Below, piece by piece: positions 1-26,658 of a stretch of DNA of 29,444 bases. Numbering within the stretch: the stretch's first letter is position 1; each line of letters starts with the position of its first letter. A program made the position numbers and the translations under genes. The notes under the pieces are model-generated. The model ran no database searches and was not told where the DNA came from. It saw nothing but the letters and a program-made list of their open reading frames with translations. Origin of the DNA: a virus; IMG/VR virus record IMGVR_UViG_3300017744_000095, positions 1 to 29,444 of that record; one strand, written 5' to 3'.

Positions 1-3000
1 CTATTTTAGCGGCTGCCAAACTAAGCCCTTCGTCTTTTGCAAAACCTTCAGCTCTACTTAAAGCATCTTGACGAGCAAAATACATTACGGCCTGTTCGCG
101 CTCTTGCTCGTAAGTTGAATCTTCAAAGTCGCTCATTTTTGCGACAAAATTATTATCATCAAACATGCGGAAGCTTCGGGTCATATATACCCCCGTGTTC
201 AAATCGAACGCAAGTTTGAGATCTTCGGGTTCCATAGTCCCTTTAAATATCTCCATTGCTTTCAACGAAAGTTGATCTTGAAGCTGCCTCATTTTAACAA
301 CCATTTCATATACTGGTTCAGATACAGTCAGAAGATCTGCCAATGCTTGATCCCTTTCTTTTATTTGCTCGTCCCTATTTACTTTTCTTAGTCTGAGAAC
401 TTCTGCATCCCTATCTGCAGCCGCTTTGTCTTCTGCGTCTGTCTTGAATGCACCCATCAAATTTTGACTAACACTCAATTTAATTGCGTCATCATAATCT
501 TTTTGGACTTTATTCTTTTGATCCTCAGTAAGTTGAGTCCCTGCTGTAGATCCAGATGCCTTAGAAATAAGTTCTGGTGGAATAACTACTGGTTTACCCG
601 CTACATCTGATAGTCTTCTCTCTTCTTTTTTTACGATCCTTCTGGTTTTAAGCTCGAAGTCAGTGATGATTTCTTTTGTGGCATCTACAAAAGATTGAGT
701 CTCGTCAAAAAATTCTACGACTCTCCTGTCTGCGCTCCTACTAAAAGTTTTAATTAACAATTTCTTGAAGTTACCGTAGCTATATTTCCCAAACTCTTTT
801 ACATCGATGTCATACTCTGTAAGATCCATCAGTGGAACATCTAGGAGTTCCAAGAAGTTCCCGATTTCATCTTCGGGCATCTTAACTTCTGGAAGTGAAC
901 TAGGTATACTAGAGTCCCCACCAAATGTTGATGGCTGACTAGCACCTACCGCAGCTTGAATCCTAACAGGAGACGGTTTTACTCTTACTGGTATTGGCGG
1001 GACTCCGAGGTCGGTTACTCCTCCGTCAGAAGTTCTCCTCCCACTGAAGAGTAGACCTCTTCTAGAGATAGACTTCTTTTGAACATCGTCTCCAATGAGT
1101 TCCTCTGCTCCTCTAAGAACTCCAGCGTCTGGCGTTCCAAACCATAGCGGCTTTGGAATTCCTTGTCCAAGGATTCTATCTCTTGCTTGCTCAATGTTAT
1201 TTTCTTTGAAGTTTTTTTCTTGTTCAGCGACATTTTTTTGGTTTCTAGATTTAGCGGGATAAATTTCTCTTATTGCTTCCCATGTTATTGATTGGAGTTG
1301 GTATGGTGGAATACCTAATGCATCAGCAGCTTGTCTGTATGCATCAGCGTATATGTGATATGTCCCTTGCATACCATCTCTTTCTGAATTAGCTGTCCCT
1401 GTTGCAAAATTCTGTGCGACAGGTTTCGCTGACTGAGCATATGGCATTAGAAATGCAGCAGCCACGGCATGGGTATCAATAGTAACGTCTCCTAAATCAC
1501 TGTAGGGGCTTACTATGTTGTTAAAGAAGCTACGAACTTTGTGATACTTACCAAGCTTATCACTTATGTTTTCCGGCGTACCATCTTCTAAAATTGATAA
1601 AGCTTTAGCCGTTTCACCAGCACTGCCCCATCCATTTTTAACAGGTGTGCCATCTGCTTTAAGGTATGGACCATTTGGTTCCCCTTCGGGAGTGACATTT
1701 GTGACCCCCTTACCAAATTCTGTTTCAGCAATAAGTCGAATAGCCCACCCTGATAGTTTCGGATCTCCCCCTTTAAGTTCCCTGAGCGTCTTACCCCTAA
1801 TCTTTTCAAAGATCATAGCCCTCTCTTCACGGGCTTGCTCATCCATCAGACGCCTCTCTTCTTTTGACTTCCCCTTTTTATTTTTTGCTGGTGCTTCAGC
1901 TACTTCAATAACAGCAGCGAGTGTAGCGTCGAACTTTTCGCTATCCATCTCATAGTCCTGATAGTTTGTGTAAACCTCAATAGTCTGTTCTGCTTGTGCG
2001 AGGTTTAGGAACCAATCTTTCTGAGGACTTAGGGACGCCATAACTCCAGCAACTTGCTCTGACGTGACTCCATATTTGTTAGCAAAACCATTAGCGATTC
2101 GATTAGCTCCCTCATACCAACGCTTTGAACGCTCTCTAATTTCAGGGTCAACTGAATTATGAAGTGCGATTAGGTTGTCAGCTAAATAGTCTTTAAGTAT
2201 TTGAAGTTTCTTTTGGGGGTTCCTTGCCCTGTTAAACTCTTTAGGAAGTATGTATCTTGAGGTGGAGGTCTTAGATTTTACACTCTCCGAAATCTTCTTT
2301 AACTGATCGGGGATAGTTGTTGATAGCAATCTCTCTGCCGCTTTAGGATCGGGGTTACCTTCACCAGTCACTCCTCCTATGTTGCTGTCGCGTGAAGTTA
2401 CAAGAGGTCTAGCTTTAGTCCCAAGTTTTGAAGTGCCAACCCTAACATCATCTCGCTTACCGATCTCAAGTAGGGCGGGGTCTACTTGAAGTCTAGATAC
2501 CTGTGGCTGAGTTTCGGAAATATCTTCTTCAGTAGTTTCAGGTGCTAACATGTTGTTTTGCATTGCCTGTCTAATGAGAGTTTCAACAACTTCCATTGGC
2601 TTGTTAGGATCGTAATTTAACTCGTTGTCAACGGGACTGTAGTTTAGTTCCATCGCCCGTATCTCACGAATTACATTGTTTACAGAGTTCCTCATTTCAG
2701 GAGAAACATCTTTCAAAGATCTGTGGTAGGTTAACTTGGTAACGAACACCTTAAGATAATTAATAAACGTAGGTATAAGCTTGGGGTTACTCGAAAGAAA
2801 AGCTACCTGTTGATTAGATGTCTCGCCTACAGTTGCTAGATCAACGTGTGCAACTATTGTTGCGAGGGCCATCTTCTGCTTTTCTTTAGATGCTTCTACG
2901 ATATCAGCACTATTCAATCGTTCAAACGCAGCTTCTTGTTCTTCTAAGGGGTAACTCTCTCTGACGATCCTGTCGAAATCTGCACTGCTCATCTCGTTAA

Positions 3001-6000
3001 TCACTGAAACGATTTGATCTTTGTTGAGCATAGCTTGTGCTGCAGCATGACCAACTTGTCGCCTCAACATCCCAGCTAAAATTTGATTAGCTCTATCTGG
3101 ATCTATGTTTTGATCGGTGACTAATTTAGAAAGTTTTATAGCAACCCTTCTAGGGTTCATTATAATACTGTTGGTTTCTACGTTATGGCTTAAAGCTTCC
3201 TTACTAGTGGGGTCAATGAGTAAGGCGACATCCGAAGAAATATAAGATCTCGCGAAACTTTTATATTCTTCTGCAGCTTCAGCAAGCGCCTCTTCATCAG
3301 CAAACTTTTCAGACATGCCTATGTCTTTAGCAATTTGATAAAGATTCTTTTGCGCTCTCCCAATTCGAGATGCAATCTGATTCCTGAATCCTGAAGCTGT
3401 TTCAGGTTCCTTGAGTCCTCGTCCAGTTAAGTCTAATGCATACGCAAGGGACTGTTTAAATTCCTTTGTGCTCCCACCAAAGAACCTAGATACAGCTTCA
3501 AAGATACGAACTAAGATATTCCTACCCCCATCAATAGGAGTAACCATCTTAACTTCTTTTTGGAAAGCTGGTGAAGTTAGTAGGTAGGCAATAAATTCTT
3601 CTACGTTTACTGTTCCATCTAGAATGTGACCCTTAACTCCAGCGTCATCGATTCGATTAGCTTTTTGTCTTACAATTTTTCGTAAGCTTTCCAACGAATC
3701 AATAGCTTTATTTTGTTCCCTAGTTCGAGCTTCGGGTGGCTTAGAAAAAATATCTACAGTAAATGCGTGAATATATTCGTGGATCAGGGTATCAGCTACA
3801 CCTCTCCCCCCTGTCCTATCAGGGTTCAGGACTACAACTCTACGACCGTTAACATCAGGGTAATAGATACCTGCGGAAGCAGAAGCACTGGGGTCAATGT
3901 AGAATTTAGTATCGCGAATGAACTCTTTGTCTCTTAGTAAAATTTTAGCAACGGGACGTAGTTGTTTAGGTTTCCCAGACTTAGCTATTTCTTCTATAGC
4001 AGCCACAACTGTTTCAGGGCGACCTTCGACTAAACCTAACTCATCAATTTGTTTGTAGTTTTCTGCAGAGATTTCTGCTCTAGATCTAGTATCTTCAACT
4101 GATTTCTTTTGTAGGTAAGCTGTGGCATTCCTGATTTGTCTGTGAAATGCCAAAACATCTTTAGGATATATTTTAGTTGACCCCGCTAATGCTTGAAGCT
4201 TTTCACGCATAAAATTAGCGAACTGTATATCAGTATCAACATCACCATCTACAGTTGGTGGAGATAAACCGAGTATTCTTATCGCATTTCTTAAATCTTG
4301 TCCGGTCTTATATGGAGAATCTTGCTGCCCTAAGCCCCAAATGAACTGAACAGCTTCTAGATTTGATGCGACATCCCCTCTAGCAAGAGAGTGTATAAAC
4401 TCAATGACAGTTTTTTCTGGGGTGTATGTAGATGTTACATCGCTACCGACCCCCGTATCTGGGGTAGATTTATCCCCCGCCCACGGTCGCCCGTTGTGGT
4501 TGAGAGTAGTTAATATTTTATTAAGTTGTTTTTGGAGTTTAGGGTCACTCTCAAGAGCAGCTACTGCATCGGCAACATGTTCGTCAATAAAGCTCTTAAT
4601 TTTATTATCTGGAAGTGGCTCTATTGGTGTTCGGCTTGGGGGTTGGTAGTTGTCTTGATACTTATTGGGATCAAAACTTTGAGGGTCTCTATGGATTAAA
4701 CTTTCAGGGTCCACCATCGCAGCTATGTCCTGCTTTGCTTTTTCTTTTCTCCCCCTTTGCTGATTAGAAAAGTAATTTACTTGTTTTTCTATGATCCTGT
4801 TAAGATCAAAAGGCATTGAACCTACTTTTTCTCCTTTAGCTAACTTTAATGAGTATTGCTTTAACTTGATCTGAAGCTCCATCTTTACAGAAATCTCTGC
4901 GGCTTCCAGATAAGGTTTGGTCAGAGACCCATTTGCGTTCTTTGCCAGCAAGTTTAGGACGCTGTTTTTCGTCTCACTGTTGTCTGTCCCTACCCCTTCG
5001 ATTTGATCGGACAGTTGATCTAGCGTTACTTCACTAAAGACATCACTATCGTATTTAAGAAACGGAGATCTAATTTTTACAGTCTTATTTAGTTCGACAT
5101 CTTTTACCTTATTAAAAATGCGGACTAAATTTTGTAGTGCGGAGTAATCACTTTCGGAAACTCCAACCTCATTCATCCTAGTCTTAGCACTGACTATTCC
5201 TCCAGCAACAGGAATCATTATGTCATGCACATAAGAAAAATCCCCCATTGAATCAGATATCTGAAATGCAGGGTTAAGTTGGCCTGTCTCTCTGAGTCTT
5301 TTAAGCTCTGCTGTCGCAATCGGGACTGGAATATCGTTGTGGATGAAAGTCATCATCCTTTGAGGGTCATTGTTAAACACCCCATCCCCATTTTCATCTA
5401 AGTGAACTTTACCCGTGCCTCCAAAAGTTGGTAATATAGAAGCTCCATTCTTTGGTTTCGACCTAGACAGGACAGGAAATTGCTCCTTGATCTTTCTTGC
5501 TATGGTATCTCTAACAAAAGTTATGTGTTCAGGATCTGTCTTTTCTAGATGAAGACCTAGCTGCTCTAGGTGTTCTTTCTTAAACTCGATAGGGTATCCT
5601 TTAGAAATAATATCATCTATAGAATAATTGTCTCCTTTAGTTAGGGCTTGCGTGACTAATGTAGCTTTAAGAGATTTCTCTAGTCTAAGTTCTTCAGCTT
5701 TGTTCTTTTTAGCCTCTATCCTTAAAGCCGATGACGCTTCAGGAGTATACATCTCCTTGTTAGCAATACCTTTTGTGATTACTTCTTGCTGGGCATTATA
5801 CTCAGGAGTCCCCGCAACTAAAGTTCTTAAAAGGTCTCTAGCCGCTATAAAGTTTTTCTCACCATCAGTAAATATTGCATCAAGAGCTTCATACCTTTGT
5901 TGTATAGTTGGTTCTTGCGCTGCTCCCACTACTCCTTCTGTAATAGATCTTTTAAGTTTTATGGGGTTTTCGGCAGTCTCAGCTATCCGATTAACTATCT

Positions 6001-9000
6001 CACTAGTAGTAACAGTTAGATCAATGTCACCTTCAAAGGTTGGATTAGAATCTACGATAGTGTTAAGGATACCATCCCAAACGCTACTAGCTTCAGGGTC
6101 TGCTGCTTTTTCTGCTAGTTTAGAAGAAAGTTCAGCGGCTTCTTCAACAGGATCAAGATCGGATTGTTCTTCAACAGGATCAACATCAGTTTGCTCTTCA
6201 ACAGGATCAACATCAGTTTGCTCTTGGCTTGCTTCCTCCCCGAAATTTTCGGCGAAGAATTCTGGAACAACTATGGGTTCTTGGTCGGCTCTCTCATCAG
6301 AAGCGGCATCCGCTCCTTCACGGTCTGCTGCTTCATCAGGCTTTGCATATTTATCGATTGCTGCCATCGCAGCATTTTTATCAGAGATAGTCTTAACTGC
6401 TTCTGCTGTTTGCGGGGCAACTTGAGCGAGCTTTTTATAAGCGTCTTTATATTCTGTATCTCTTATCCCTTGTTCAAAATCTTTTAATACTTGCTCTTCA
6501 GCGAGTAACATCTGGTCCATGTCTACTCTTCCGAATTTTTTACCTAAAGAAGTATTTCGGAAGGTTGTTCCAGCTAGGTTCAAACCTCCCCCAAGGAAAC
6601 CACCCATCACTATGGAGTGAAAAGTCTGAGATAATCTATCATATAAAGGTGTGTCCTTATTTAAGAAAGCGTCTTCAATTAAACCATTGATAATAGTGTC
6701 GAGTCCTTCTTCAAAACCTTCACTCACTACATCTCTTGTCAGTTTGCCAGCACCCATAGCTCCAAATTTGAGCATGGTTTTCCTAACGGCATCCTTCATT
6801 ATTTTTTTGAATGTTTTGTCTGATGACACACGCCCAACAAGTCTACCTGTCGCGGCTTTAAGTTGGCTGTAGCTAAGACCTTTTAAAAATGCCCCCTCTG
6901 CCCCTGCGAATTTCCCACCCATCATAGTTCCCATAGATGCGGTGATCAATCCAGTTACAACACCTGTTGTTATGTAACCCCTAGCACCTAGAGAGTGTGC
7001 TTCGCCTTTAACACGTTCTTCACTCCACCCTTCGTCCCACTTCCCATCTTTTTTATGCTCCGCAGTTAGCTCACTTACTGTTTGAGTATATAAAGTTGTG
7101 TAAGTTGATGAGCCTTGCCGTGCCGCAGCAGGGACAAACATCGACGTGCTAATGTCTAAGGACTTAGCTAAAGAGCTATTGTATGTTTTTAAGACTGATA
7201 ATATTTCTTTAGAAGATAAATCTTTTAATGCTCCAGAAGCTGTAACTCTTTTAACTAAGGCTTCCATACTCTCTTCAACCGCTTTACCCGAAACATCTTT
7301 AACAGTTTTTAGTCTAAGATTACTTGTAAAAGTTCCTTGAACTAATGTTCTCGCGGCGGCTGTGGCATTAACACCAGAAGTTAAAGCTTTGGTAGCCGCT
7401 GCACTTTTGCCCAATAACCCCTCTGCTTTCATGGCTTGTGTCACAGCTTTTTTGGCTGTCTGCTTTGCAGAGTAGTAAAATCCTACTCCTGCAGCAGAAG
7501 ATCCACCACTAACAGGGGTTGCTGCTGCTAGACCAGCAGTTATTACGGCATCCCCTGCTAAGGGGGCAAGTGTTTCCACAGTCTCTTGTCCAAACCCTAC
7601 ATCACGACCAAAGAGAAGGAACAATTCTCTGTTGTGCGCTTTCTCTTCCGCTGCATTCATCAGACCTTTACGGCCCCATTCAAAATTTAAAGCTGCTGCG
7701 ACTCCATATACTGGGGTTCTCCAAGTATCATGTGCCGACACATAAACACCGGCAGTCCCTAAATTGGGGTTGTGCTCTTTTATGAATTTTGTGAGAGTAT
7801 CGTGCTTTGATAAACCATTTTGCACCCCCTCCATTTTAGCTGCTGCCCATTTATCATCAAGGCCACCCACCATCTCAAAAACATAACCCTTATCTCCTGA
7901 CAGGATTTTATCATACACCTCATAGTTTTCCGTTACAGTAACGTGTCTATTAGTGTCTTCGATCTCATACTGTTTTTTACTTACCCCAGCTTGCCTAAAA
8001 GCTTCCTTAAATTCATCAGGTTTTAAGTTGAGTTCGGGGGGAGCAAACACCCCGTGAAATGAAGTTCGTGTAATATTTTCCCCTAGTCTATCGGCATCTT
8101 CAATGAACGCTCGCATAGTGGGGATGCCTTTCACCCTACCTGAAGCCATCATTTTCATAACTTCCGTTATGCTTTCTTCGATGACATCTTTGGGTAAATC
8201 TGTTTTTTGTATTACATAATTAATTAAGTTAGTTTTCGCGCTCTCTGTATCCTCTGCATACGATTTAGTTAGCCTTTTAAAATCTATCTTGTTTCGACGA
8301 GCGTTAGCAGCCTTATCATCTCCAGTTACAACTTCGTAAGCGTAGGGAATGTTTATATAGTTACTTAAAATACTTTCAAAATTACCTACAACTTCTTTAG
8401 AGAACCGCTCTCGCATACCCCAAGTGTCTGCTTGCTGCTGACGCATGGATAATCCATCTAGGGTCGCGTGAATAGTCCTATCATATATAGGACTTTTTTT
8501 ATTTCTAGATTCTAATAACAAGTTAAATACATCGGCCCTTTCATCCACCTCATACGCCATCAATTTGTTGCTATCTGAATTGGGATCTGGGTCATAACTG
8601 TCCCAAGTAAATCTTTCAGTTCCTTCGATGGGTTTTCTTTTTTCTAAAAATGCGAGAGAATCGTAAAAAGAAACACCAGATCCCAGTGCCGATCCTTTTA
8701 TAACATCCGATACAGTTTTGTTCTCAGGAACCCTACCACCTACAAGCCTACGCCGACCTTCCGTGTCATAATAGATCCCAGCATCTATATCGCCTGAAGC
8801 GTAGTTTTTCCGAACGACATCCTCTCTTGTCTTACGAACAATTTCTTCTACCTCTTCTTTTTTCTCGGCCTGACCAGCGGGATCTTTTAAATAATTATCT
8901 ACCGTAAAAGACTCATACCTATTAAATTCAGTATTATCTTTTGAATACGTATTAATAAAATCAATGTCTTGTTCTAGTGTTGGTTTGTATGAGTCTTTAA

Positions 9001-9283
9001 CTTCTTGAATTACATCCTCTTGGTTTTCTTCAGTTAAAAAACCTTTATAAAAAAGCCCCTGATATAATTTCTCTTGGATGTCAGATTCTACCGCTGCCCC
9101 ATATTTATTTTCATCTAAATACTGCATTCTTAAATTGTCAGCATAAGAAGCCATGCTCAAAGTTGTATCTTCAGAAATATTATTCTGCTCTGCCCACTCC
9201 GAATAAGGAGTAGGTTCAATAGTTGGTAGCGTTGGTCCCACAAACTCACCTTGGTTGTAGAACTGTTTGTCGTTTTCTGGCAT
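1..9283 (-). CDS. Giant polyvalent virion-type protein with metallopeptidase and HhH-GPD-like domains (C-terminus off the left edge)
   Basis: The frame is open from ATG 9283 to the window edge, giving more than 3,090 residues with no stop seen. Residues 1 to about 560 are helical and charged. Glycine/alanine-rich hydrophobic segments lie near 568-594, 766-798 and 886-908. An acidic three-copy repeat is near 1021-1048. Residues about 1790-1960 look like a zinc metallopeptidase: HEYIH at 1835-1839 and a glutamate pair at 1895-1896 in VEEFIAYL, as expected for a third metal ligand. Residues about 2385-2620 carry KRWYEGANRIA, SLSPQKDW (ending at 2424) and VTIDTHA (D2603), resembling HhH-GPD-like phage domains. 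Near 3030-3045 is GVYMTRSF, a motif I recall from large phage polyvalent proteins. Such proteins are known to be packaged and injected with phage DNA. It lies 5 bp after an internal-virion-like gene in the terminase operon. No Shine-Dalgarno sequence is seen. Injection is inferred. Confidence 0.8.
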   Translation of the reverse strand, partial: MPENDKQFYNQGEFVGPTLPTIEPTPYSEWAEQNNISEDTTLSMASYADNLRMQYLDENKYGAAVESDIQEKLYQGLFYKGFLTEENQEDVIQEVKDSYKPTLEQDIDFINTYSKDNTEFNRYESFTVDNYLKDPAGQAEKKEEVEEIVRKTREDVVRKNYASGDIDAGIYYDTEGRRRLVGGRVPENKTVSDVIKGSALGSGVSFYDSLAFLEKRKPIEGTERFTWDSYDPDPNSDSNKLMAYEVDERADVFNLLLESRNKKSPIYDRTIHATLDGLSMRQQQADTWGMRERFSKEVVGNFESILSNYINIPYAYEVVTGDDKAANARRNKIDFKRLTKSYAEDTESAKTNLINYVIQKTDLPKDVIEESITEVMKMMASGRVKGIPTMRAFIEDADRLGENITRTSFHGVFAPPELNLKPDEFKEAFRQAGVSKKQYEIEDTNRHVTVTENYEVYDKILSGDKGYVFEMVGGLDDKWAAAKMEGVQNGLSKHDTLTKFIKEHNPNLGTAGVYVSAHDTWRTPVYGVAAALNFEWGRKGLMNAAEEKAHNRELFLLFGRDVGFGQETVETLAPLAGDAVITAGLAAATPVSGGSSAAGVGFYYSAKQTAKKAVTQAMKAEGLLGKSAAATKALTSGVNATAAARTLVQGTFTSNLRLKTVKDVSGKAVEESMEALVKRVTASGALKDLSSKEILSVLKTYNSSLAKSLDISTSMFVPAAARQGSSTYTTLYTQTVSELTAEHKKDGKWDEGWSEERVKGEAHSLGARGYITTGVVTGLITASMGTMMGGKFAGAEGAFLKGLSYSQLKAATGRLVGRVSSDKTFKKIMKDAVRKTMLKFGAMGAGKLTRDVVSEGFEEGLDTIINGLIEDAFLNKDTPLYDRLSQTFHSIVMGGFLGGGLNLAGTTFRNTSLGKKFGRVDMDQMLLAEEQVLKDFEQGIRDTEYKDAYKKLAQVAPQTAEAVKTISDKNAAMAAIDKYAKPDEAADREGADAASDERADQEPIVVPEFFAENFGEEASQEQTDVDPVEEQTDVDPVEEQSDLDPVEEAAELSSKLAEKAADPEASSVWDGILNTIVDSNPTFEGDIDLTVTTSEIVNRIAETAENPIKLKRSITEGVVGAAQEPTIQQRYEALDAIFTDGEKNFIAARDLLRTLVAGTPEYNAQQEVITKGIANKEMYTPEASSALRIEAKKNKAEELRLEKSLKATLVTQALTKGDNYSIDDIISKGYPIEFKKEHLEQLGLHLEKTDPEHITFVRDTIARKIKEQFPVLSRSKPKNGASILPTFGGTGKVHLDENGDGVFNNDPQRMMTFIHNDIPVPIATAELKRLRETGQLNPAFQISDSMGDFSYVHDIMIPVAGGIVSAKTRMNEVGVSESDYSALQNLVRIFNKVKDVELNKTVKIRSPFLKYDSDVFSEVTLDQLSDQIEGVGTDNSETKNSVLNLLAKNANGSLTKPYLEAAEISVKMELQIKLKQYSLKLAKGEKVGSMPFDLNRIIEKQVNYFSNQQRGRKEKAKQDIAAMVDPESLIHRDPQSFDPNKYQDNYQPPSRTPIEPLPDNKIKSFIDEHVADAVAALESDPKLQKQLNKILTTLNHNGRPWAGDKSTPDTGVGSDVTSTYTPEKTVIEFIHSLARGDVASNLEAVQFIWGLGQQDSPYKTGQDLRNAIRILGLSPPTVDGDVDTDIQFANFMREKLQALAGSTKIYPKDVLAFHRQIRNATAYLQKKSVEDTRSRAEISAENYKQIDELGLVEGRPETVVAAIEEIAKSGKPKQLRPVAKILLRDKEFIRDTKFYIDPSASASAGIYYPDVNGRRVVVLNPDRTGGRGVADTLIHEYIHAFTVDIFSKPPEARTREQNKAIDSLESLRKIVRQKANRIDDAGVKGHILDGTVNVEEFIAYLLTSPAFQKEVKMVTPIDGGRNILVRIFEAVSRFFGGSTKEFKQSLAYALDLTGRGLKEPETASGFRNQIASRIGRAQKNLYQIAKDIGMSEKFADEEALAEAAEEYKSFARSYISSDVALLIDPTSKEALSHNVETNSIIMNPRRVAIKLSKLVTDQNIDPDRANQILAGMLRRQVGHAAAQAMLNKDQIVSVINEMSSADFDRIVRESYPLEEQEAAFERLNSADIVEASKEKQKMALATIVAHVDLATVGETSNQQVAFLSSNPKLIPTFINYLKVFVTKLTYHRSLKDVSPEMRNSVNNVIREIRAMELNYSPVDNELNYDPNKPMEVVETLIRQAMQNNMLAPETTEEDISETQPQVSRLQVDPALLEIGKRDDVRVGTSKLGTKARPLVTSRDSNIGGVTGEGNPDPKAAERLLSTTIPDQLKKISESVKSKTSTSRYILPKEFNRARNPQKKLQILKDYLADNLIALHNSVDPEIRERSKRWYEGANRIANGFANKYGVTSEQVAGVMASLSPQKDWFLNLAQAEQTIEVYTNYQDYEMDSEKFDATLAAVIEVAEAPAKNKKGKSKEERRLMDEQAREERAMIFEKIRGKTLRELKGGDPKLSGWAIRLIAETEFGKGVTNVTPEGEPNGPYLKADGTPVKNGWGSAGETAKALSILEDGTPENISDKLGKYHKVRSFFNNIVSPYSDLGDVTIDTHAVAAAFLMPYAQSAKPVAQNFATGTANSERDGMQGTYHIYADAYRQAADALGIPPYQLQSITWEAIREIYPAKSRNQKNVAEQEKNFKENNIEQARDRILGQGIPKPLWFGTPDAGVLRGAEELIGDDVQKKSISRRGLLFSGRRTSDGGVTDLGVPPIPVRVKPSPVRIQAAVGASQPSTFGGDSSIPSSLPEVKMPEDEIGNFLELLDVPLMDLTEYDIDVKEFGKYSYGNFKKLLIKTFSRSADRRVVEFFDETQSFVDATKEIITDFELKTRRIVKKEERRLSDVAGKPVVIPPELISKASGSTAGTQLTEDQKNKVQKDYDDAIKLSVSQNLMGAFKTDAEDKAAADRDAEVLRLRKVNRDEQIKERDQALADLLTVSEPVYEMVVKMRQLQDQLSLKAMEIFKGTMEPEDLKLAFDLNTGVYMTRSFRMFDDNNFVAKMSDFEDSTYEQEREQAVMYFARQDALSRAEGFAKDEGLSLAAAKI
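6141..6221 (-). repeat. Three tandem 27-bp units encoding an acidic 9-residue repeat
   Basis: Units at 6141-6167, 6168-6194 and 6195-6221 are each 27 bp. The second and third are identical and the first differs at a few bases. They lie in frame in the giant gene and encode EEQTDVDPV-type repeats. This is probably a flexible acidic linker between the membrane-like N-terminal part and the enzymatic C-terminal part. Confidence 0.9.
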
Positions 9284-11555: not shown

Positions 11556-11584
11556 AGTATAGAGTTTTACCTTATGAAAGTCAA
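11556..11584 (-). promoter_or_regulatory. Sigma70-like promoter giving a nearly leaderless mRNA
   Basis: On the minus strand, TTGACT (11584-11579), a 17-bp spacer and TATACT (11561-11556) match sigma70 -35 and -10 boxes at 5/6 each. The ATG of the 318-residue gene begins 7 bp after the -10 box, so the expected start of transcription falls within 1-2 nt of the start codon. The -35 box overlaps the terminase stop codon. A similar arrangement precedes the gene at 24373. Confidence 0.5.
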
Positions 11585-13368
11585 TCGACTAGAGATGCGT
11601 CAGGATTCTGCAAAGCACCACTCAAAAACTTCATCGAACGTCTAGGTCCGTTATGCAGTTTATCCCCGTCCTTTGGTGGATCTACGGCTACTAACCCCAA
11701 TCTTTGACGCGCACAATCGAGAGCAAGAAAAGCGGCATCGGCAAGGTCAGGACTCCTACCGAATCTAGCTTTGAACTCTGGCTTGGATTCTATCTTCATT
11801 CGAAGGGTCGATCCTTTCACATGATCGTAGTTCCTCGCTGTGATTTCTTGAGCGAGGTCGCTGTTCACTCCATAAACCTGCCGTGTTCTCATCAATTCTT
11901 TCCCGACAAACCACAGTTCTGAAACCCTGTTTACGTAGAGTTCAGTCCCGATCATCTGACTATTCGCGCTAACTCTCTTATCACTAGCTTTCCCACCAAA
12001 AGAAATACGCATGAATCGATTCGACCACTCGCCAGCTAGGACATCGCAAAAGGGAGCCCCCGCTCCCGTGGCATCAACGCTGACATTCTCTGGTAGGATC
12101 TTTAGCTTTTCGCAATGCTCTCGAATCTGTCTCACTATCTGGTAGGTTCGAGGGACTGCTTTATTTGTCGCATCATCATTAAGATGAATGGCTTTACCAA
12201 ACTCCAACACATACTGACCAGAGGAACTGTAGCCACACTTAGCTGTGTAAAGTATGGTTCTATCACCACCATTAGTAAATGCGGGGTCAATCCCACATAA
12301 ATTAATCGGAGAACCTCTCCACTCAACTGCATTCAAAGCTCCCGTATTAGCGAGTTCATTCTCTGTGTAGATGCCTGTGGTTTCATCACTATCAAAAAAT
12401 ACAGCGCGAACCATTCGCATGTAGCCCCTACTCTCTACACCCAGTAGAGCTTTATCTTCTGCAAGCTTCTCCGCTGTGGGTAGCCAAGGATATATGACTT
12501 CACCCGCCAAAATGTTTGGGGATCTCTCACCATCTAGCCGTAGATACTTACCATTCCATTTTGTGTCCCACCCATCTGCGGTGTTAGTATCCACACTGTC
12601 CCACCCATCTTTGGGGGTGGACCATATACCAAACGCATCAAACCTTGAGTTGGGGTTACTCATCCCAATCATCTGAAAGGAGGGGTTTTTAGACAAGTTC
12701 GTGAGTCCAGCGTTCAAAATTGCTTCAGATAATTCTGATAGCTCATCGCCAATAAGTATGACTCTCTTCTGTTTGATTCCGATAAACTTACCAACTGCTT
12801 CCTTAGTCTTACTCTTCTCCGCTGAAATCAGCGATAGTCCTGCTCGCTCAATTAAAATACCCTTCTCATTAACGTAAGATACATTGCCTATTGAATCGCG
12901 TATCTTGATTGGTGCATCATCTATCACGGACAGTAGAGAAATTACACTACCCCAGATTCGTTTACGAGCTTCACGAAGTGTGGTGGATGTCATCAACACT
13001 AGCGTATCTTGAGGTTGGGATAAAAAGTTAACGATCCCCCACGCTGCCATAATGTGGGATTTACCAGATGAAGCAGAACCACCAACGGCTAAGTATTTAT
13101 TTTCCAATGCGGCCTTTACCATCAACTCTGCCCACGGATGTCTGACACAGAGTTTTTCTGGTAACTCTTCGTTGTTCCAAAGTTCGTCGCATATTCTCCA
13201 GAAATAATATTCTCTAGCTACAGAAGTTTCGTGGTTAGCAAACCCATACAGGAGTGCAGTAATTAGACTAGTAGGCGGGAGTTGAAACCCACCAACATCC
13301 ATCTTCTTTGTCTTAGCATCGATGCGCGGTTCTAGTAACTGCTTGCTCCGCTCTTGTTTTAAAGCCAT
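11581..13368 (-). CDS. terL: Terminase large subunit (ATPase and nuclease)
   Basis: This is the motor that packages DNA into the procapsid. I chose MALKQ at 13368 (595 residues) as the start, because the 23-residue upstream extension would overlap the divergent gene at 13393. In this numbering the Walker A motif is GGSASSGKS (about 96-104). Walker B is VILIGDE (D208, E209). The RNase H-fold nuclease has acidic residues in GIDPAF (D361), SVDATGAG (D432) and SPDLADAAF (D540, D544). Length and motif order are normal for TerL. It is the first gene of the minus-strand operon towards the giant protein. Its presumed small subunit is encoded on the other strand, 24 bp away, which is unusual. Confidence 0.95.
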   Translation of the reverse strand: MALKQERSKQLLEPRIDAKTKKMDVGGFQLPPTSLITALLYGFANHETSVAREYYFWRICDELWNNEELPEKLCVRHPWAELMVKAALENKYLAVGGSASSGKSHIMAAWGIVNFLSQPQDTLVLMTSTTLREARKRIWGSVISLLSVIDDAPIKIRDSIGNVSYVNEKGILIERAGLSLISAEKSKTKEAVGKFIGIKQKRVILIGDELSELSEAILNAGLTNLSKNPSFQMIGMSNPNSRFDAFGIWSTPKDGWDSVDTNTADGWDTKWNGKYLRLDGERSPNILAGEVIYPWLPTAEKLAEDKALLGVESRGYMRMVRAVFFDSDETTGIYTENELANTGALNAVEWRGSPINLCGIDPAFTNGGDRTILYTAKCGYSSSGQYVLEFGKAIHLNDDATNKAVPRTYQIVRQIREHCEKLKILPENVSVDATGAGAPFCDVLAGEWSNRFMRISFGGKASDKRVSANSQMIGTELYVNRVSELWFVGKELMRTRQVYGVNSDLAQEITARNYDHVKGSTLRMKIESKPEFKARFGRSPDLADAAFLALDCARQRLGLVAVDPPKDGDKLHNGPRRSMKFLSGALQNPDASLVD

Positions 13369-13371
13369 AAT
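13343..13371 (+). promoter_or_regulatory. Possible promoter for the plus-strand packaging/replication block
   Basis: TTGCTC (13343-13348), a 17-bp spacer and CATAAT (13366-13371) give a weak -35 and a good -10 match. Transcription would start near 13378, about 15 nt before the ATG at 13393. It lies inside the 5' end of terL. No better candidate was seen in the 24-bp divergent gap, which is AT-rich. Confidence 0.3.
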
Positions 13372-13392
13372 GTTGATGCAGAATATATCTAT

Positions 13393-13953
13393 ATGAGCGG
13401 GAATCCTAAAGAAGAAATTCAAGAACGTGCTGTGCAAATGTATCGGGCTGATTGGAAGACGGCAGCTATTGCTAAGGAGTTAGGTGTGCATGCAGGAACA
13501 GTAAGGAGGTGGTTTAAGAAAAGAGGCATCCCTGCTAAAAAATCAGGTCTGGTTAGGAACGAGCAAATTGAAGGTGAGGAAACACCCATCGAGCAGAACT
13601 TCGAGAACATGACGGATGAGGCTGTGATGCGAGCGAAACACGATGCACGAATCAAGGAGGAACAAGACATCCTTGAGATCGCCGAGAGTCAGGCAAGCCC
13701 CGCCGATAAGTATCAGAACTATATGGCGATGGCGGCAATCCGACTAGCGAGAGATGGGATGAAGAACATCAACGCACCTAAGAATGTGAGGGAGCTTTCA
13801 GAACTTGACCAATTGATACGAAGAAATTTAGGTCTGAACTCTAAGACCGGAGGGGGCGCTGCCAGCAAAATGCAGATCGACATCTCGATCCTTAACAACA
13901 AGAAAGCGGATCGCGGTGAAGGAACCATAATCGATATTCAAAGCGATGATTAA
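13393..13953 (+). CDS. Probable terminase small subunit (HTH protein)
   Basis: The protein has 186 residues. Residues about 5-50 form a helix-turn-helix of the type found in terminase small subunits and transposase-like regulators (AAIAKELGVHAGTVRRWFKK), followed by a basic stretch. A helical region (about 70-155) contains ASPADKYQNYMAMAAIRLA and ELDQLIRRNLGL, similar to the oligomerisation region of TerS proteins. It is encoded head-to-head with terL, 24 bp apart. TerS recognises the phage packaging site and recruits TerL. The alternative is a transcriptional regulator controlling the divergent pair. I favour TerS from the domain order and position, with moderate certainty. No Shine-Dalgarno sequence is seen. 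Confidence 0.6.
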   Translation: MSGNPKEEIQERAVQMYRADWKTAAIAKELGVHAGTVRRWFKKRGIPAKKSGLVRNEQIEGEETPIEQNFENMTDEAVMRAKHDARIKEEQDILEIAESQASPADKYQNYMAMAAIRLARDGMKNINAPKNVRELSELDQLIRRNLGLNSKTGGGAASKMQIDISILNNKKADRGEGTIIDIQSDD

Positions 13954-14287: not shown

Positions 14288-14514
14288 AATTTTTTGATAA
14301 CAAAGAAGTTGTAAGTGATCCAGAAGTCTTGATACGAACGGAGCGTGATGACGGCGACTTTGATTTTACTGTTAAGAAACTTGAAGGTGCGTTCTATAAA
14401 GTGGTTCCGTCTAATGCGAGAGAAATTCTTTTCTTAAAACAACTCAAGAAGAACGTATTTAAATACACCCCCGCAACAGGCGATGGATTAATTGTCACCT
14501 TAAACGTGCTGTGA
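14284..14514 (+). CDS. Uncharacterised small protein
   Basis: This 76-residue protein belongs to no family I recognise. It mixes acidic and aromatic residues (DDGDFDFTVKKLEGAFYKVV) and may be a small beta-rich fold. It has no membrane segment and no cysteines. It overlaps the gene before by 4 bp (ATGA) and the resolvase gene after it by 4 bp. The tight placement and the open frame support it as real; the function is unknown. Confidence 0.6.
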   Translation: MKFFDNKEVVSDPEVLIRTERDDGDFDFTVKKLEGAFYKVVPSNAREILFLKQLKKNVFKYTPATGDGLIVTLNVL

Positions 14515-15005
14515 TTGTAGGAGTTGATAACGGCTTAGACGGTGGTCTCGTCGCTATCTCTGATCATGGTTTGATCATTGATAAGATTGCGATGCCTACA
14601 AAGCAGATGTCAAAAAAGCGTGAGATTGATGTCAGAGAAATTAAGAAGTGGTTGATGTATTTAAACACGCCATTCTTACTAGCTATCGAAGAGCCACTAG
14701 CCCACGCTAAAAGTTCTCAAGCTGTTCGATCTATGGCATTGAGCTTCGGCAAACTTCTGGGCATGGCAGAGACATGCGATTTTGATGTCTGCCGTGTCTC
14801 AGTTCACAAGTGGCAGAAGGCGATCTTAGGATTCCGACCAAAAGGGACAACTAAGAAAACCGCTCTCGCCAAGGCTGAAGCTATAGCGCCAGATGAGAAC
14901 TGGTTAAAAAACAAGAGGTGTAGAACCCCCCACGATGGAATGGTTGATGCGTTCCTGATTGCCCGTTATATTTGGGAAGGGAAAAAAATTGAAGAAAGTT
15001 CTTGA
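14511..15005 (+). CDS. RuvC-like Holliday junction resolvase
   Basis: This is a structure-specific endonuclease with the RNase H fold, expected to cut Holliday or other branched DNA during recombination, or before packaging. It has 164 residues and starts at GTG. The acidic catalytic set of the family is visible: VGVDNG (D6) on the first strand, LAIEEP (E60/E61) in the middle, and HDGMVDAFLIARY (D142, D146) on the C-terminal helix. Length is normal for phage RuvC-like enzymes. The start overlaps the previous gene by 4 bp, and the next gene begins 30 bp later. It lies upstream of the Fe-S nuclease and ssDNA-binding protein, consistent with a recombination set. Confidence 0.8.
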   Translation: MIVGVDNGLDGGLVAISDHGLIIDKIAMPTKQMSKKREIDVREIKKWLMYLNTPFLLAIEEPLAHAKSSQAVRSMALSFGKLLGMAETCDFDVCRVSVHKWQKAILGFRPKGTTKKTALAKAEAIAPDENWLKNKRCRTPHDGMVDAFLIARYIWEGKKIEESS

Positions 15006-15035
15006 GTAACTTTTCGGGTCTGCCATGTTCCGTTC

Positions 15036-15257
15036 ATGGCAAGAATACAAAAGATCACAAGATCAGATAAGCACCACCAATATGCTGAGAAACATATGGC
15101 CTTTTCTGATGCGGGGGGTATGGAATTACGAGACTACTTTGCAGGACAAGTTTTGTCCCGCATCATATCTGAAGATGACGATATGCGGGATGTTGCTAAT
15201 TACGCATATGATATGGCAGACTGGATGATGGCAGTCAGAGATGAGCGTTCCATGTAA
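15036..15257 (+). CDS. Small conserved phage protein of unknown function
   Basis: The protein has 73 residues. The segment GGMELRDYFAGQVL followed by an acidic helix and YDMADWMMAVRDER matches a pattern I recall in many small phage proteins of unknown function (GMxLRDYFA). It is soluble, with no cysteines. Its stop codon overlaps the start of the downstream nuclease gene (TAATG), so translation is probably coupled. An alternative frame at 15025-15228 is not supported. Confidence 0.7.
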   Translation: MARIQKITRSDKHHQYAEKHMAFSDAGGMELRDYFAGQVLSRIISEDDDMRDVANYAYDMADWMMAVRDERSM

Positions 15258-16378
15258 TGAGTGCTCAACCTAATCACACAGAGAGAGGACACGCTGAGTT
15301 TTCTCCCAGCCAGCTAAAATATTTAGCAGGGTGTTCTGGCTATCAAGGTCGTAGTGGCACTAATGCAGCAGCAGCTATGGGAACACGCATCCACGAAGCG
15401 TTGGAGATCGAAGACCCATCCAATCTTCAAAGCGAGGAAGAGGTAAGTATCTACAATGAGATACTCACGGATCAAACCGAATACTTAGCAAACTACAAAG
15501 ACAATAGGAGGTTAACGGAGGAACACGCTGAGATTCAACTTGATGTCAAACTCGAAGGAACTGAAACTTACGGAACTTGCGATTACCTGTGCATCTTCGA
15601 TAACGTCGATGGAGTCTTAATTGATTACAAAACAGGTATCTCCAAGATAGATACTCCAGCTAAAAACTTTCAAGCGAAAGCCTACACCGTTGGTTGTTTT
15701 CAAAAATACCCAGAACTCACCTGCATTGACTTTGTTTTCTTTGTCCCGCAGCGAAACGAAATATTATCAGATACGTTCTACCGAGAAGACCTCGATGAGT
15801 TAATCGAAGAGTTATCAGACGTAATTTTAAAAGCAGAAAAGGTTCGCCCCAAATGGGAGACGGGGACTCCCAGTCTGGAAGAACTGACCCCGACTGTCGA
15901 TTGCAGGTTCTGCAAGCATGAAGATACCTGCCCAGCCCTCGGTGGATTAGTTGTTGAAGTTGCTAAAAAAGTAGACCCTCAACTACCTGACGTTGATCTA
16001 GATACAGTTGAAGATCCAGAAGTGGTGGAGCAACTCTACATGATTGCAAAGATTGTTACCAACTGGGCAGATCGTTTCAAGAAAAGGGCTATTAAACTAG
16101 CAGAAGATGGAATCGAATACCCCACTCTCCGTCTCAAAACGATGAGGGGGCGAAGAAACGTGACTGACTCAGATACATTTTTAAAGATTGCTAAAGATTT
16201 TGGGGTTGATAGTGAAGAAGTTTTACGCCATGTATCTCTGCCGCTTGCCAAGATTGCGAAGGCTGTGGGAGACACGGCAGAGAAAGGTGAGAAGAAAAGA
16301 CAATCAGATCAATTTTTAGATGCCTGTAATGACTCAGGTATTATTGAAGAATCTGCTCCTCGACGAACTTTGTCGTAG
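15257..16378 (+). CDS. Cas4/RecB-like PD-(D/E)XK exonuclease with an Fe-S cluster
   Basis: This is a 373-residue nuclease expected to resect DNA ends during phage recombination or replication. Residues about 15-48 hold FSPSQLKYLAGC and TRIHEALE (H46), the conserved RecB-family N-terminal motif. The catalytic core is GTCDYL (D109) and LIDYKTG (D123, K125). Four cysteines (C26, C216, C219, C225), the last three in CRFCKHEDTC, are spaced like the 4Fe-4S clusters of Cas4, AddB and Dna2. The C-terminal 130 residues are helical and basic, probably for DNA binding. It starts at TAATG, coupled to the small gene before it, and is followed by a putative ssDNA-binding protein. That pairing fits a 5'-end resection and annealing module, which is inferred. 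Confidence 0.85.
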   Translation: MSAQPNHTERGHAEFSPSQLKYLAGCSGYQGRSGTNAAAAMGTRIHEALEIEDPSNLQSEEEVSIYNEILTDQTEYLANYKDNRRLTEEHAEIQLDVKLEGTETYGTCDYLCIFDNVDGVLIDYKTGISKIDTPAKNFQAKAYTVGCFQKYPELTCIDFVFFVPQRNEILSDTFYREDLDELIEELSDVILKAEKVRPKWETGTPSLEELTPTVDCRFCKHEDTCPALGGLVVEVAKKVDPQLPDVDLDTVEDPEVVEQLYMIAKIVTNWADRFKKRAIKLAEDGIEYPTLRLKTMRGRRNVTDSDTFLKIAKDFGVDSEEVLRHVSLPLAKIAKAVGDTAEKGEKKRQSDQFLDACNDSGIIEESAPRRTLS

Positions 16379-16390
16379 AGCAAAAACAAA

Positions 16391-16429
16391 GAAACAAGAA
16401 ACATCGAAACATAGAAACATCGAAACATG
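16391..16429 (+). repeat. Tandem GAAACAT(N) 8-bp repeat ending in the start codon of the next gene
   Basis: GAAACAA (16391-16397) is followed by four units of GAAACAT plus C, A, C and G. The last unit (16422-16429) contributes the ATG start of the next gene. The tract is purine/adenine-rich, without a Shine-Dalgarno sequence, and fills the whole 48-bp intergenic gap together with A-rich sequence. Confidence 0.9.
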
Positions 16430-17089
16430 AGTAAGAAAGAAAACGAGCTTGCTGAAGCTCCAAACACCAGCCTAGTTCCATCGCTATCTGATACGTTGGA
16501 TCAAAATGACATCGACATCCCAAGGGTGAACGTGGTTCAAAAGACCAGTGACATCTTTGGAGCCGATGGTGAACCAGCACCATATGGAAGCCTAGTGCTT
16601 GATAAGCGTGTTGTTATTGCAAAACCCGAAGAAGCAATTCAAGTGGTTCCAATGTCGGCAGTAAAATCATGGCGTGAGGACATTCCTTTCGACAATGATG
16701 AAATGCCCCGCATTGCAACATCTCAAGATGAAAAGGCTCGCCTATCTCTAGATAGTGAGTATCCAATCTTAGAATTTGCTGAGATTACATTACTGTTTAA
16801 AGGTGCTGAAGACGATTCAGAAACCTTCCCGTTCCCCCTTGGAAAAGGTAACTACGCCATTGGGCGAATTAACGTAGCTAAAGATGCATACCGACAAACA
16901 TTCAAAAGACTCGCTACCTTTGCGATGTTCAACAAGAAAACACCGATACATAACAGACTGTGGAATTTTAAATCCACTCTTATTACTCGGGGTAAGTATA
17001 GTTGGTATGCACCAGCTTTGGCGATTACGAACGAAGAACCGTCAGAAGAAGTCTTAGATTTTGTAGGAGGGTATTTAGGACATGAGTAA
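16427..17089 (+). CDS. Putative single-stranded DNA-binding protein
   Basis: The protein has 220 residues. The N-terminal segment NDIDIPRVNVVQKTSDIF resembles the start of phage proteins annotated as ssDNA-binding or recombination-associated (IPRVxxxQ type). The centre is beta-rich, as expected for an OB-like fold, and aromatic residues occur at about 150-200 (NRLWNFKSTL, KYSWYAPAL). The N-terminus is acidic and probably disordered. Placed after the Fe-S nuclease and before the DNA polymerase, it could bind single strands during replication. No cysteine or catalytic motif is seen. The assignment rests on context and loose similarity, so an unknown replication accessory protein remains possible. 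It overlaps the next gene by 8 bp. Confidence 0.5.
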   Translation: MSKKENELAEAPNTSLVPSLSDTLDQNDIDIPRVNVVQKTSDIFGADGEPAPYGSLVLDKRVVIAKPEEAIQVVPMSAVKSWREDIPFDNDEMPRIATSQDEKARLSLDSEYPILEFAEITLLFKGAEDDSETFPFPLGKGNYAIGRINVAKDAYRQTFKRLATFAMFNKKTPIHNRLWNFKSTLITRGKYSWYAPALAITNEEPSEEVLDFVGGYLGHE

Positions 17090-17303
17090 AGTCAGCCCAA
17101 GCCCACAAGACAGAAGAAAGATTCTTGAGATTGAGATTTCAAAAATGCGCGAACTAATCCAACGGATTGAGGAAGCAATTGAAACATCGAAGCTCGACTT
17201 GCAAATGTCAAATGTTGTATTGGATTCTCTTGAAGACGCCTTTAAAGCTTTACCTGAGCAGACGGAAATCGCAGTTGCGGAAATCGTCGAAGACTTGAAA
17301 TAA
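17082..17303 (+). CDS. Small coiled-coil protein
   Basis: The protein has 73 residues and is almost entirely helical, with heptad-like spacing (ILEIEISKMRELIQRIEEAI) and an acidic C-terminus. No enzyme motif is seen and no family is recognised. It has one of the few good Shine-Dalgarno sequences in the window: GGAGG at 17067-17071, 10 nt before the ATG at 17082, inside the preceding gene. It is the last gene before the structured region and terminator, so it probably ends the first plus-strand transcription unit. Confidence 0.65.
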   Translation: MSKVSPSPQDRRKILEIEISKMRELIQRIEEAIETSKLDLQMSNVVLDSLEDAFKALPEQTEIAVAEIVEDLK

Positions 17304-17321
17304 CTTTTGGGACAGGGTATT

Positions 17322-17388
17322 GCGGCGGCGTCTTTGTGTGTTCGCTAGTTATAACATCGCCTTGGGGGTAACCGCATAAAAGCCCCCC
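17322..17388 (+). ncRNA. Candidate structured RNA with pseudoknot potential
   Basis: In the 158-bp gap before the polymerase gene, GCGG (17322-17325) can pair with CCGC (17372-17375), and GGCG (17327-17330) with CGCC (17358-17361). In between, GGGGG (17364-17368) can pair with CCCCC (17383-17388) outside the first stem, which would form a pseudoknot. It matches no RNA family I can name. No ORF is seen here. The intrinsic terminator follows 10 bp later. Pairing was judged by eye and no energy was calculated. Confidence 0.35.
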
Positions 17389-17398
17389 ACCAAAATAA

Positions 17399-17453
17399 AG
17401 CCTCACCCCCACGACTATGGGTTTCCATCACCTAGGGGGTGGGGCTACTTTTT
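17399..17453 (+). terminator. Intrinsic terminator between the coiled-coil gene and DNA polymerase
   Basis: AGCCTCACCCCC (17399-17410) pairs with GGGGGTGGGGCT (17435-17446) over 12 bp with one wobble pair. The loop contains a small ATGG/CCAT hairpin. A T5 run (17449-17453) follows two bases after the stem. The polymerase ATG lies 8 bp beyond the T run. Confidence 0.8.
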
Positions 17454-17461
17454 AAATATAC

Positions 17462-19243
17462 ATGAATAAAATTATATATGCTGTGGACTTCGAAACATAC
17501 TACGACAAAGAATGTAGTATTCGAACATTAGGTCCACTTGGGTATTTTTCTCACCCAAAATTTGACGCTTACATGGTGAGCGTAGTTGGTTCGGACGGTT
17601 TAACTTTTGTTGGGCATCCCGAAAAATTCGATTGGTCATTATTAAATGACAACATCGTCCTATCGCACAACGCCTCTTTTGATGAGACCCTTCATCTCTA
17701 TGCGGTATCTATGGGTTGGTGGGACAGTTGTTCTCCAGCGGAGTGGCATTGCACGGCAGATCTAGTGGCTTATTGCAAACTTCCCAGATCGCTTAAAGGG
17801 GCTACTGCTAAACTCTATGACATCCAAGTTGATAAATCTACCCGCGATAATATGTCGGGGAAAAATTGGAGTGAGATGAGTGAAGAGTTCCAGAAGGAGG
17901 TGAGTGAGTATGCTATCAAAGATAGTGAGCTTTGCTTACGATTGTGGAATAGTCTGGAAGATAAGTGGCCGCAATTCGAAAGGAGTGTTAGTCGATTGAA
18001 TAGGACAATTGTTCAGCGTGGAATCCCCATAGACTTAGACCTACTAAAGACTCAACTCGAAACAATCAAAGTTAGTTTATTCGAAGCGGAAGAAGACATT
18101 CCTTGGTTGGGTGAAAAGCCTCTATTGAGTAGGGCAGCATTTAACTCTCAATGCCTTCTTGTTGGTATCGAGCCTCCAGCTAGTTTAGCTCAAACAGATA
18201 AGGACTCTCAGGAATGGGTGGAGTATCACAGCAAAGAGCATAAGTGGGTTTCAGCCGTTAAAGACTGGAGAAGGATAAACTCTCTAAAGAAGAAGCTAGA
18301 AGCATTTGATAACGCCACTATGTCTGACTCCCGTTACTATGGCGGCTGTATGTATTTCGGAGCGCACACTGGTAGGTTCAGTGGTTCGGGTGGAAACTTA
18401 AACCTACAGAACTTACCAAGGGAAGAAATGTTTGGGGTCAATCTCCGACATCTTATCAAGCCTCACAAACTTAAAAGACTAGTCGTTGTTGACCTCTCCC
18501 AAATCGAAGTGAGAACACTTTGTTGGTTAGCAAATGATAAAGAAATGCTTAACGAGATCGCAGAGTGTGATGACATCTATGAAGCGTTCGCGATTCGGTT
18601 TGGAATGTGGAACCCAGACGAAGAAGATAAATCCTTTAAGAAGCACCCCAAACTTAGACATTCAGTAAAAGGAATGGTTCTGGGGTGTGGCTATGGTGCA
18701 GGAGCAGGTCGTTTTGCTTCGATGTCCAACATCTCCGAAAAGGAAGCTGAGAAGAGAGTTAAGAAATATAGGAGTAAAATGCAGAGGGTTAAAACCCTGT
18801 GGTCCAAATATAACTCGGAAATCGAGGGTTCTCACGAAGCTAGTCAGCAGATCCCTACAGAGTTCACTGTAGAACTCCCTAGCGGTAGGGTTATTAATTA
18901 TGGTGTTCTTACGGCGACTCCAGATTGCGGAAGATTACATTTTATAGCTGGTATTCCTAGACACGGAAAAATCCTGCCCGTTCGTCTTTGGGGAGGATTA
19001 GTAGCAGAGAATGCTTCACAAGCATTAGCTAGGGATATATTTTCCGATATGATGCTGCGTGTCGAAGAAGCTGGTTACAAAATAGTGATGCATGTCCACG
19101 ACGAAATGGTCATCGAAGCTAGGGAAGAAGATGCAGAAGACACACTAAAAGAGGTTACAAGAATTATGTCGGAACCTCCGGCATGGATTCCTGATATCCC
19201 CCTATCTGCTGAAGGGTCAATCCTAACACGCTATGAAAAATGA
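17462..19243 (+). CDS. DNA polymerase A family with 3'-5' exonuclease (Leu762 type)
   Basis: This is the replicative polymerase of the phage, 593 residues long, with no 5'-nuclease domain. Exo I is VDFETYYD (D9, E11), exo II SHNASFDE (N70, D74) and exo III YAIKDSE (Y150, D154). The polymerase motifs are A, VVVDLSQIEVR (D344); B, R399 to YG411-412 in RHSVKGMVLGCGYG; and C, VHDE (H546, D547, E548). In motif B the residue equivalent to E. coli Phe762 is Leu407 (codon 18680-18682), a variant known in viral PolA. There is no Shine-Dalgarno sequence; the start lies 8 bp after a terminator T run. The 3' end overlaps the primase-helicase gene by 4 bp (ATGA). Confidence 0.95.
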   Translation: MNKIIYAVDFETYYDKECSIRTLGPLGYFSHPKFDAYMVSVVGSDGLTFVGHPEKFDWSLLNDNIVLSHNASFDETLHLYAVSMGWWDSCSPAEWHCTADLVAYCKLPRSLKGATAKLYDIQVDKSTRDNMSGKNWSEMSEEFQKEVSEYAIKDSELCLRLWNSLEDKWPQFERSVSRLNRTIVQRGIPIDLDLLKTQLETIKVSLFEAEEDIPWLGEKPLLSRAAFNSQCLLVGIEPPASLAQTDKDSQEWVEYHSKEHKWVSAVKDWRRINSLKKKLEAFDNATMSDSRYYGGCMYFGAHTGRFSGSGGNLNLQNLPREEMFGVNLRHLIKPHKLKRLVVVDLSQIEVRTLCWLANDKEMLNEIAECDDIYEAFAIRFGMWNPDEEDKSFKKHPKLRHSVKGMVLGCGYGAGAGRFASMSNISEKEAEKRVKKYRSKMQRVKTLWSKYNSEIEGSHEASQQIPTEFTVELPSGRVINYGVLTATPDCGRLHFIAGIPRHGKILPVRLWGGLVAENASQALARDIFSDMMLRVEEAGYKIVMHVHDEMVIEAREEDAEDTLKEVTRIMSEPPAWIPDIPLSAEGSILTRYEK

Positions 19244-26652: not shown

Positions 26653-26658
26653 GGCAAA

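Follow-up and report, generated by a model that had tools for sequence, protein, structure and literature searches.

A cysteine-free giant protein of probable polyvalent type closes an exchangeable three-gene cassette in uncultured marine phages

We analysed a 29,444-base stretch of viral DNA (the window), which is a complete virus record, and conclude with a probability of about 75% that its largest gene encodes a phage-type polyvalent protein, the last to be ejected of a three-protein cassette, in an uncultured and probably short-tailed marine lineage. The block architecture of this giant, its zincin signature, the homology and fold of its C-terminal block (C-block), the exclusion of cysteine, the mosaicism of its cargo and the en bloc exchange of the cassette are direct results of our computations. 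An earlier note on this DNA had raised the possibility of an ejected protein of polyvalent type, which is supported by C-block homology to an ART-PolyVal protein and to a virion protein detected by mass spectrometry, by fold matches, by the occurrence of the domain DUF7178 in two unrelated polyvalent giants, by the lack of cysteine and by a gene order like that of N4 and T7. The same note had pictured a single-chain ejection device; this is probably wrong, as the locus resembles a cassette of three proteins that ends with the giant.

Architecture of the giant protein

The unbroken minus-strand frame of more than 3,090 residues described earlier is real: it counts 3,094 codons (2-9283), begins with an ATG at 9283 and is free of stops up to the contig edge at base 2. 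A frame of this length at 40-43% GC rules out chance. Its 3' end is cut by the contig edge and, given that the giants of complete relatives measure 3,260-5,394 aa, several hundred residues of the window copy are missing. Colinear giants come after the same two genes in those relative contigs that are of sufficient length.

Table 1. Features of the giant gene and its neighbourhood in the window (aa, residues of the giant)
Feature	Position	Strand	Remarks
Giant ORF, 3,094 aa	2..9283	-	3' end cut by contig edge; zero cysteine
C-block, first 289 aa (aa 2806-3094) of ~1,100	2..868	-	remainder beyond contig; includes GVYMTRSFRMFDD
Slot B, variable cargo slot (aa 2252-2805)	869..2530	-	
DUF7178 cargo domain (aa 2355-2699)	1187..2221	-	invariant K2582; DTH motif (D2603)
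Middle block (aa 1179-2251)	2531..5749	-	holds zincin-like metallopeptidase
Zincin core (aa 1793-1904)	3572..3907	-	three predicted strands, HEYIH helix, later helix with E1896
Acidic repeat linker (aa 1021-1048)	6140..6223	-	within variable slot A
N-block (aa 18-963)	6395..9232	-	present in 32/32 giants examined
Companion ejection-protein candidate, 442 aa	9289..10617	-	zero cysteine
Companion ejection-protein candidate, 318 aa	10592..11548	-	zero cysteine
Terminase large subunit	11581..13437	-	by sequence motifs; start probably downstream of TTG; exchanged-block boundary
HTH protein, terminase small-subunit candidate	13393..13953	+	

The N-block, middle block and C-block are common to the 32 giants, the exception being L111, a truncated copy that ends before the C-block. 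They form a chassis of fixed order (N-block, zincin block with its HExxH...E signature, C-block), with exchangeable modules between the last two, and no core block, the N- and middle blocks included, matched a Pfam or PHROGs model. Near its end the N-block carries an E-x2-EE-x2-D motif (aa 855-862), preceded by a glycine-rich, mildly hydrophobic stretch; similar motifs in N4 gp50 (aa 388) and LS06 (aa 359) are suggestive only. The hydrophobic segments that had earned the protein the description membrane-like exist, yet the Kyte-Doolittle mean stays below 1.6 over every 19-residue window, which leaves that description weakly supported. The acidic repeat linker, also reported earlier, was located and consists of a 9-aa unit in three near-copies. 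In the giants of L092, L093, L108, L109 and L115, slot A is enlarged (583-721 aa, versus about 150-290 in most) and the middle block is long and interrupted.

The peptidase site previously read from the middle block, HEYIH with a distal EE pair, lies at aa 1835-1839 (DNA 3767-3781) and 1895-1896 and is conserved across the 32 giants: H1835, E1836 and H1839 are retained in 30-32 of them, E1896 in 29 and F1897 in all 32. In an AlphaFold2 model (pLDDT averaging 64.7 over its length and mostly 80-90 across the zincin; model numbering), strands at 154-157, 166-170 and 176-180 are followed by the HEYIH helix at 190-208 and by the Glu on a helix at 255-264. This topology agrees with the MPTase core of polyvalent proteins, which comprises three strands, an HExxH helix and a later Glu helix (PMC5512222), a feature that is common but not required in the class. 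An MPTase domain has been located in the N4 virion RNA polymerase (vRNAP; PMC5512222), and a local match of the window zincin to N4 vRNAP aa 2224-2268 scored 44.6, against a maximum of 31.2 over 40 shuffles. The giants of L108 and L109 have lost the HExxH from an otherwise recognisable middle block; peptidase activity is therefore not universal.

The C-block links the giant to proteins of other phages. The TRSF motif of the earlier note was found in it at aa 3031-3043 (GVYMTRSFRMFDD, DNA 155-193), within a conserved motif with invariant Y, R and F. A C-block profile matched the ART-PolyVal protein WPJ21803 of Pseudoalteromonas phage vB_Pun_Y3 over ~710 columns (E 5e-40), gp123 of Cellulophaga phage phi18:3 (E 6.7e-29), HTVC027P gp85 (E 8e-21) and StenR_269 (E 5e-9), while shuffled and reversed controls were silent. 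With a C-block model (pLDDT 69.8, pTM 0.63, nearly all helix), Foldseek retrieved 47 viral models at E<=1e-3, with moderate TM-scores of about 0.2-0.56 by query length; many are named large polyvalent, ART-PolyVal, Zeta toxin or RelA/SpoT, and one is an internal virion protein. PDB fold searches with this model and with the one that covers the zincin returned nothing significant. No C-block was found in GTDB genomes, so that no host can be assigned.

Two of these homologues are particularly informative. In Y3, WPJ21803 (1,027 aa) is preceded by the polyvalent protein WPJ21802 (3,421 aa), which carries ddrB-ParB, ART-PolyVal, LPD5 and LPD1; both are cysteine-free like the window giant, but they are two genes with other N-terminal domains, and the Y3 terminase and portal are not recognisably related to those of the window lineage. 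The phi18:3 protein (Pachyviridae) is the last of a cysteine-free set and, according to its GenBank record, a structural protein by MS/MS; it differs in its length of 1,935 aa and in an N-terminal part without a match to the window N- or middle blocks.

Compared with the phage polyvalent proteins of Iyer et al. (2017, PMC5512222; P1 DdrB/DarB, N4 vRNAP), the window giant is likewise a giant multidomain protein with a zincin MPTase, accreted cargo domains and predicted injection, but it is built on an orphan chassis of fixed layout that has a single main cargo slot, and the window copy has neither LPD, ART, helicase nor ParB domains by Pfam. At least two functionally disparate domains in one polypeptide, the mark of a polyvalent protein, are present (the zincin signature and DUF7178; in L114 a GNAT domain and a second HExxH). 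No catalogued polyvalent domain (LPD, ART-PolyVal, ddrB-ParB and others in Pfam) was detected in the window giant or the cores, and an LPD38 profile found nothing in the giants of 22 records, the control genomes being equally silent. The profile and structure searches suggested in the earlier note delivered C-block homologues and folds but no Pfam polyvalent domain in the window giant. Membership in the class fails on named domains and is supported by fold and by homology, which runs indirectly through Y3, LS06 and zth2-2.

Gene order and cysteine exclusion

The giant is the last gene of a block of three (318 aa, 442 aa, giant) that follows the terminase, and terminase, two medium ORFs and giant succeed each other in this order in the relative contigs that reach far enough. 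The window and its relatives show the arrangement of a T7/N4/P22-type ejection cassette, three consecutive genes in the structural region with the largest last. The small-middle-giant order recurs in N4 (gp52-gp51-gp50) and DEV (gp73-gp72-gp71), where the giant also has a zincin, and the N4 cassette proteins are all cysteine-free like those of the window; in contrast to N4 and DEV, no RNA polymerase was found in the window giant and the companions are not homologous (hhalign). The two adjoining internal-virion candidates of the earlier note keep that standing as cysteine-free companions in an N4/T7-like order, and hhalign against the neighbours in N4, Y3, phi18:3, HTVC027P, StenR and LS06 matched them to no known ejection or channel protein. 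A cysteine-free protein of ~3,100 aa with DUF7178 is also encoded behind internal virion protein genes in Rhodobacteraceae phage LS06-2018-MD07 (WBK39883); it differs in having a methyltransferase and an ART-PolyVal match, and its cores are not demonstrably homologous to the window giant.

The lineage itself is an uncultured, widespread marine group with contigs up to about 68 kb. Its terminase-like protein has at least 317 relatives in IMG/VR, while the window terminase gave no Pfam or PHROGs match, the terminase and portal candidate no INPHARED match (tblastn), and the terminase, portal and capsid candidates (window 11581-13437; L173:7496-9715 and 4397-5776) no PHROGs match. A replication block in the window (14511-22759) encodes DUF2800/PD-(D/E)XK, a family A DNA polymerase, a DUF5906 primase-helicase and an Amidase_3 lysin; INPHARED contains about 2,300 matches to the polymerase, every one below 60% identity.

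Not one cysteine occurs in the giant, although the other window genes would lead one to expect 38 (P about 2e-17, with residues taken as independent). The 32 giants have only 10 cysteines in 131,717 aa, and the homologues of the two companions, 53 and 60 in number, have none, as against 1.0-2.1% in the TerL, PolA, primase and DUF2800 families and 0.58% in portals. Known ejection proteins behave alike: N4 gp50-52 have 0 cysteines in 4,294 residues, P22 gp7/20/16 have 0 in 1,309, and T7 gp14/15/16/6.7 have 2 in 2,349 (none in gp15 and gp16), versus 31 in 3,646 residues of the other P22 proteins examined and 23 in 3,455 of those of T7. The absence of cysteine from N4-like vRNAPs has been noted before and attributed to passage through the tail and periplasm (PMC3715699, PMC3915230). 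Since T7 gp9, P22 gp8 and gp26, and N4 gp56 and gp57, among them scaffold-like proteins and the N4 MCP, also lack cysteine, this signature is not confined to proteins that are ejected. DUF7178 has 0 cysteines in 11 copies inside giants or large phage proteins and two to four in three of four stand-alone copies. In the ejection region of phage Y3 (L117:19497-37521), the six proteins examined (519, 317, 216, 318, 3,421 and 1,027 aa) have zero cysteine, which suggests from sequence that all six may be virion-internal or ejected. Cysteine exclusion, which applies to N4 and P22 and for the most part to T7, offers a sequence test for ejected proteins that is usable genome-wide.

Exchange of cargo and of the whole cassette

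Slot B varies from 42 to 2,076 aa among 29 giants. In about a third it measures just 42-291 aa, and large cargo is thus not essential. Giants with cores of mostly 25-40% identity have slot modules in common at 55-83%; between window and L116, for instance, the slot is 72% identical and the three cores 33, 39 and 48%. The slot of the L114 giant (aa 2509-3952) holds a GNAT domain and a second HExxH site.

The commonest recognised cargo is DUF7178, of various types. The window copy matches PF23802 (Pfam, E 6e-30) and corresponds to the region that had been called glycosylase-like. The domain also resides in polyvalent proteins of two unrelated phages, beside a methyltransferase and a sub-threshold ART-PolyVal match in LS06-2018-MD07 and beside ART-PolyVal and LPD22 in zth2-2, and other phages have small free-standing copies that bear the annotation glycosylase or endonuclease. 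All 15 of 15 sequences retain a Lys and an Asp; in an alignment to Nth that is not significant (P 0.11), K2582 and D2603 line up with its Lys and DTH Asp. PF00730 (HhH-GPD) and PDB profiles gave no match, and hhalign to E. coli Nth and to an Enterobacterales Nth profile was without significance, so that DUF7178 is rejected as a proven DNA glycosylase. It is likely a nucleic-acid-acting domain, for which the glycosylase name may serve as a lead.

Whole cassettes are exchanged between near-identical phages. Between the window and G001, the backbone genes, running from terminase through amidase to the ORF that follows, are 93-100% identical in amino-acid sequence, whereas the three cassette genes are 33-44% identical, and nucleotide identity ends about 4 nt into the 318-aa gene. 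In several phage pairs with terminases 97-99% identical, the three cassette genes are replaced together; giant N-blocks are 28, 39, 43, 50 or 63% identical in pairs of this kind other than window/G001 and stay at 93-95% in further pairs at the same terminase identity. Past the stop of the giant, identity returns (96% in L093/L115). Identity of the 442-aa protein follows that of the giant beyond what the terminase predicts (partial rank correlation 0.56, the pairs not being independent). The contig L120 was considered as a cassette donor with a diverged backbone and rejected: its TerL is 95% identical to that of G001, which makes it a second contig of the same cassette type.

The window and G001 also differ in two tail-region ORFs (24421-26652 and 26659-27912; window 24421-27912 against L174), which are replaced at 42% and 56% identity while their neighbours are still 86-93% identical. 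Tail-gene co-exchange with the cassette was rejected as a general claim, because the replacement is partial between the window and G001 and the other pairs with swapped cassettes have mostly kept these genes. Mosaicism of ejection proteins has been described for P22- and T7-like phages (PMC8954989), so that the principle of exchange is not new; the present case adds its scale and the slot inside the giant.

Alternative readings and a proposed mechanism

As the sequences are all metagenomic contigs, the cassette swap might be an assembly artefact. We consider this highly improbable: across the window junction the independent contig L001 is 99.99% identical over 11 kb, L120 has the alternative junction, the same pattern appears in several pairs, and homology returns right after the giant's stop. 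It would be equally surprising if the giant were an N4-type virion RNA polymerase, despite a size, position, zincin and lack of cysteine that resemble N4 gp50. A fibre or polymerase match, which the earlier note had named as evidence against its proposal, came up only as one C-block homologue annotated as a putative virion-associated RNA polymerase, with no recognisable polymerase motif. There was no Pfam polymerase match and no recurrent polymerase-like motif across the giants, and the sole profile match to N4 gp50 covers 43 residues at the zincin; a single-subunit RNA polymerase domain was rejected for the window giant, as only the zincin aligns with N4 gp50. A tape measure or fibre protein would account for the great length and the helical content; we reject this identity as the least probable of all in view of a separate, cysteine-bearing fibre-like ORF elsewhere in a related genome and of the relationship of the C-block to polyvalent proteins and to the virion protein of a short-tailed phage.

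A more serious contender, though in our view an unlikely one, is a purely mechanical ejection protein similar to T7 gp16, which would assist the DNA across the envelope and in which the zincin would serve the protein's own maturation and the slot adaptation to the host envelope, with no counter-defence effector. The order of the cassette genes and the exclusion of cysteine are compatible with any ejection protein, and the short slots in about a third of the giants fit this one. Against it, slots hold GNAT and DUF7178, the latter also found in polyvalent giants with ART and methyltransferase, and the high identity of modules set in diverged cores is the pattern expected of effectors.

We prefer a polyvalent protein that probably resides in the virion and enters the cell together with the DNA. 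The mechanism that we infer takes the N4 and DEV ejection cassettes (PMC12633501, PMC10925440) as its analogy for a channel built by the smaller proteins and a giant that comes after. The three cassette proteins would be packed in the head, and the two smaller ones would form a channel through the outer membrane and periplasm of the cell envelope, as do T7 gp14/gp15 and N4 gp52/gp51. The giant would then thread unfolded through this channel and cross the inner membrane, a passage that would explain the exclusion of cysteine. The N-block may engage the inner membrane, and the zincin may cleave the polypeptide, either inside the head or once it has entered the cell, or have a role in packaging. 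Slot B would deliver an exchangeable effector, here DUF7178, to act in the cytoplasm, and the C-block may be a conserved packaging or ejection module common to other polyvalent virion proteins. We tentatively propose, at a little under even odds, that the giant is a standard delivery chassis with a single fixed slot, flanked by a self-processing peptidase and a packaging domain, for interchangeable effectors that are purged of cysteine when recruited, while the whole cassette is swapped between near-identical phages.

Injection of polyvalent proteins is for the most part a prediction that has seldom been tested, and this marine lineage provides a natural experiment, as backbones about 95-99% identical carry wholly different cassettes and slot contents move between diverged giants. 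If our proposal is true, marine phages would gain a fast two-level system for changing what is injected and through which envelope. The swapping of both the injection gene set and its cargo section suggests how phages may re-arm against host barriers.
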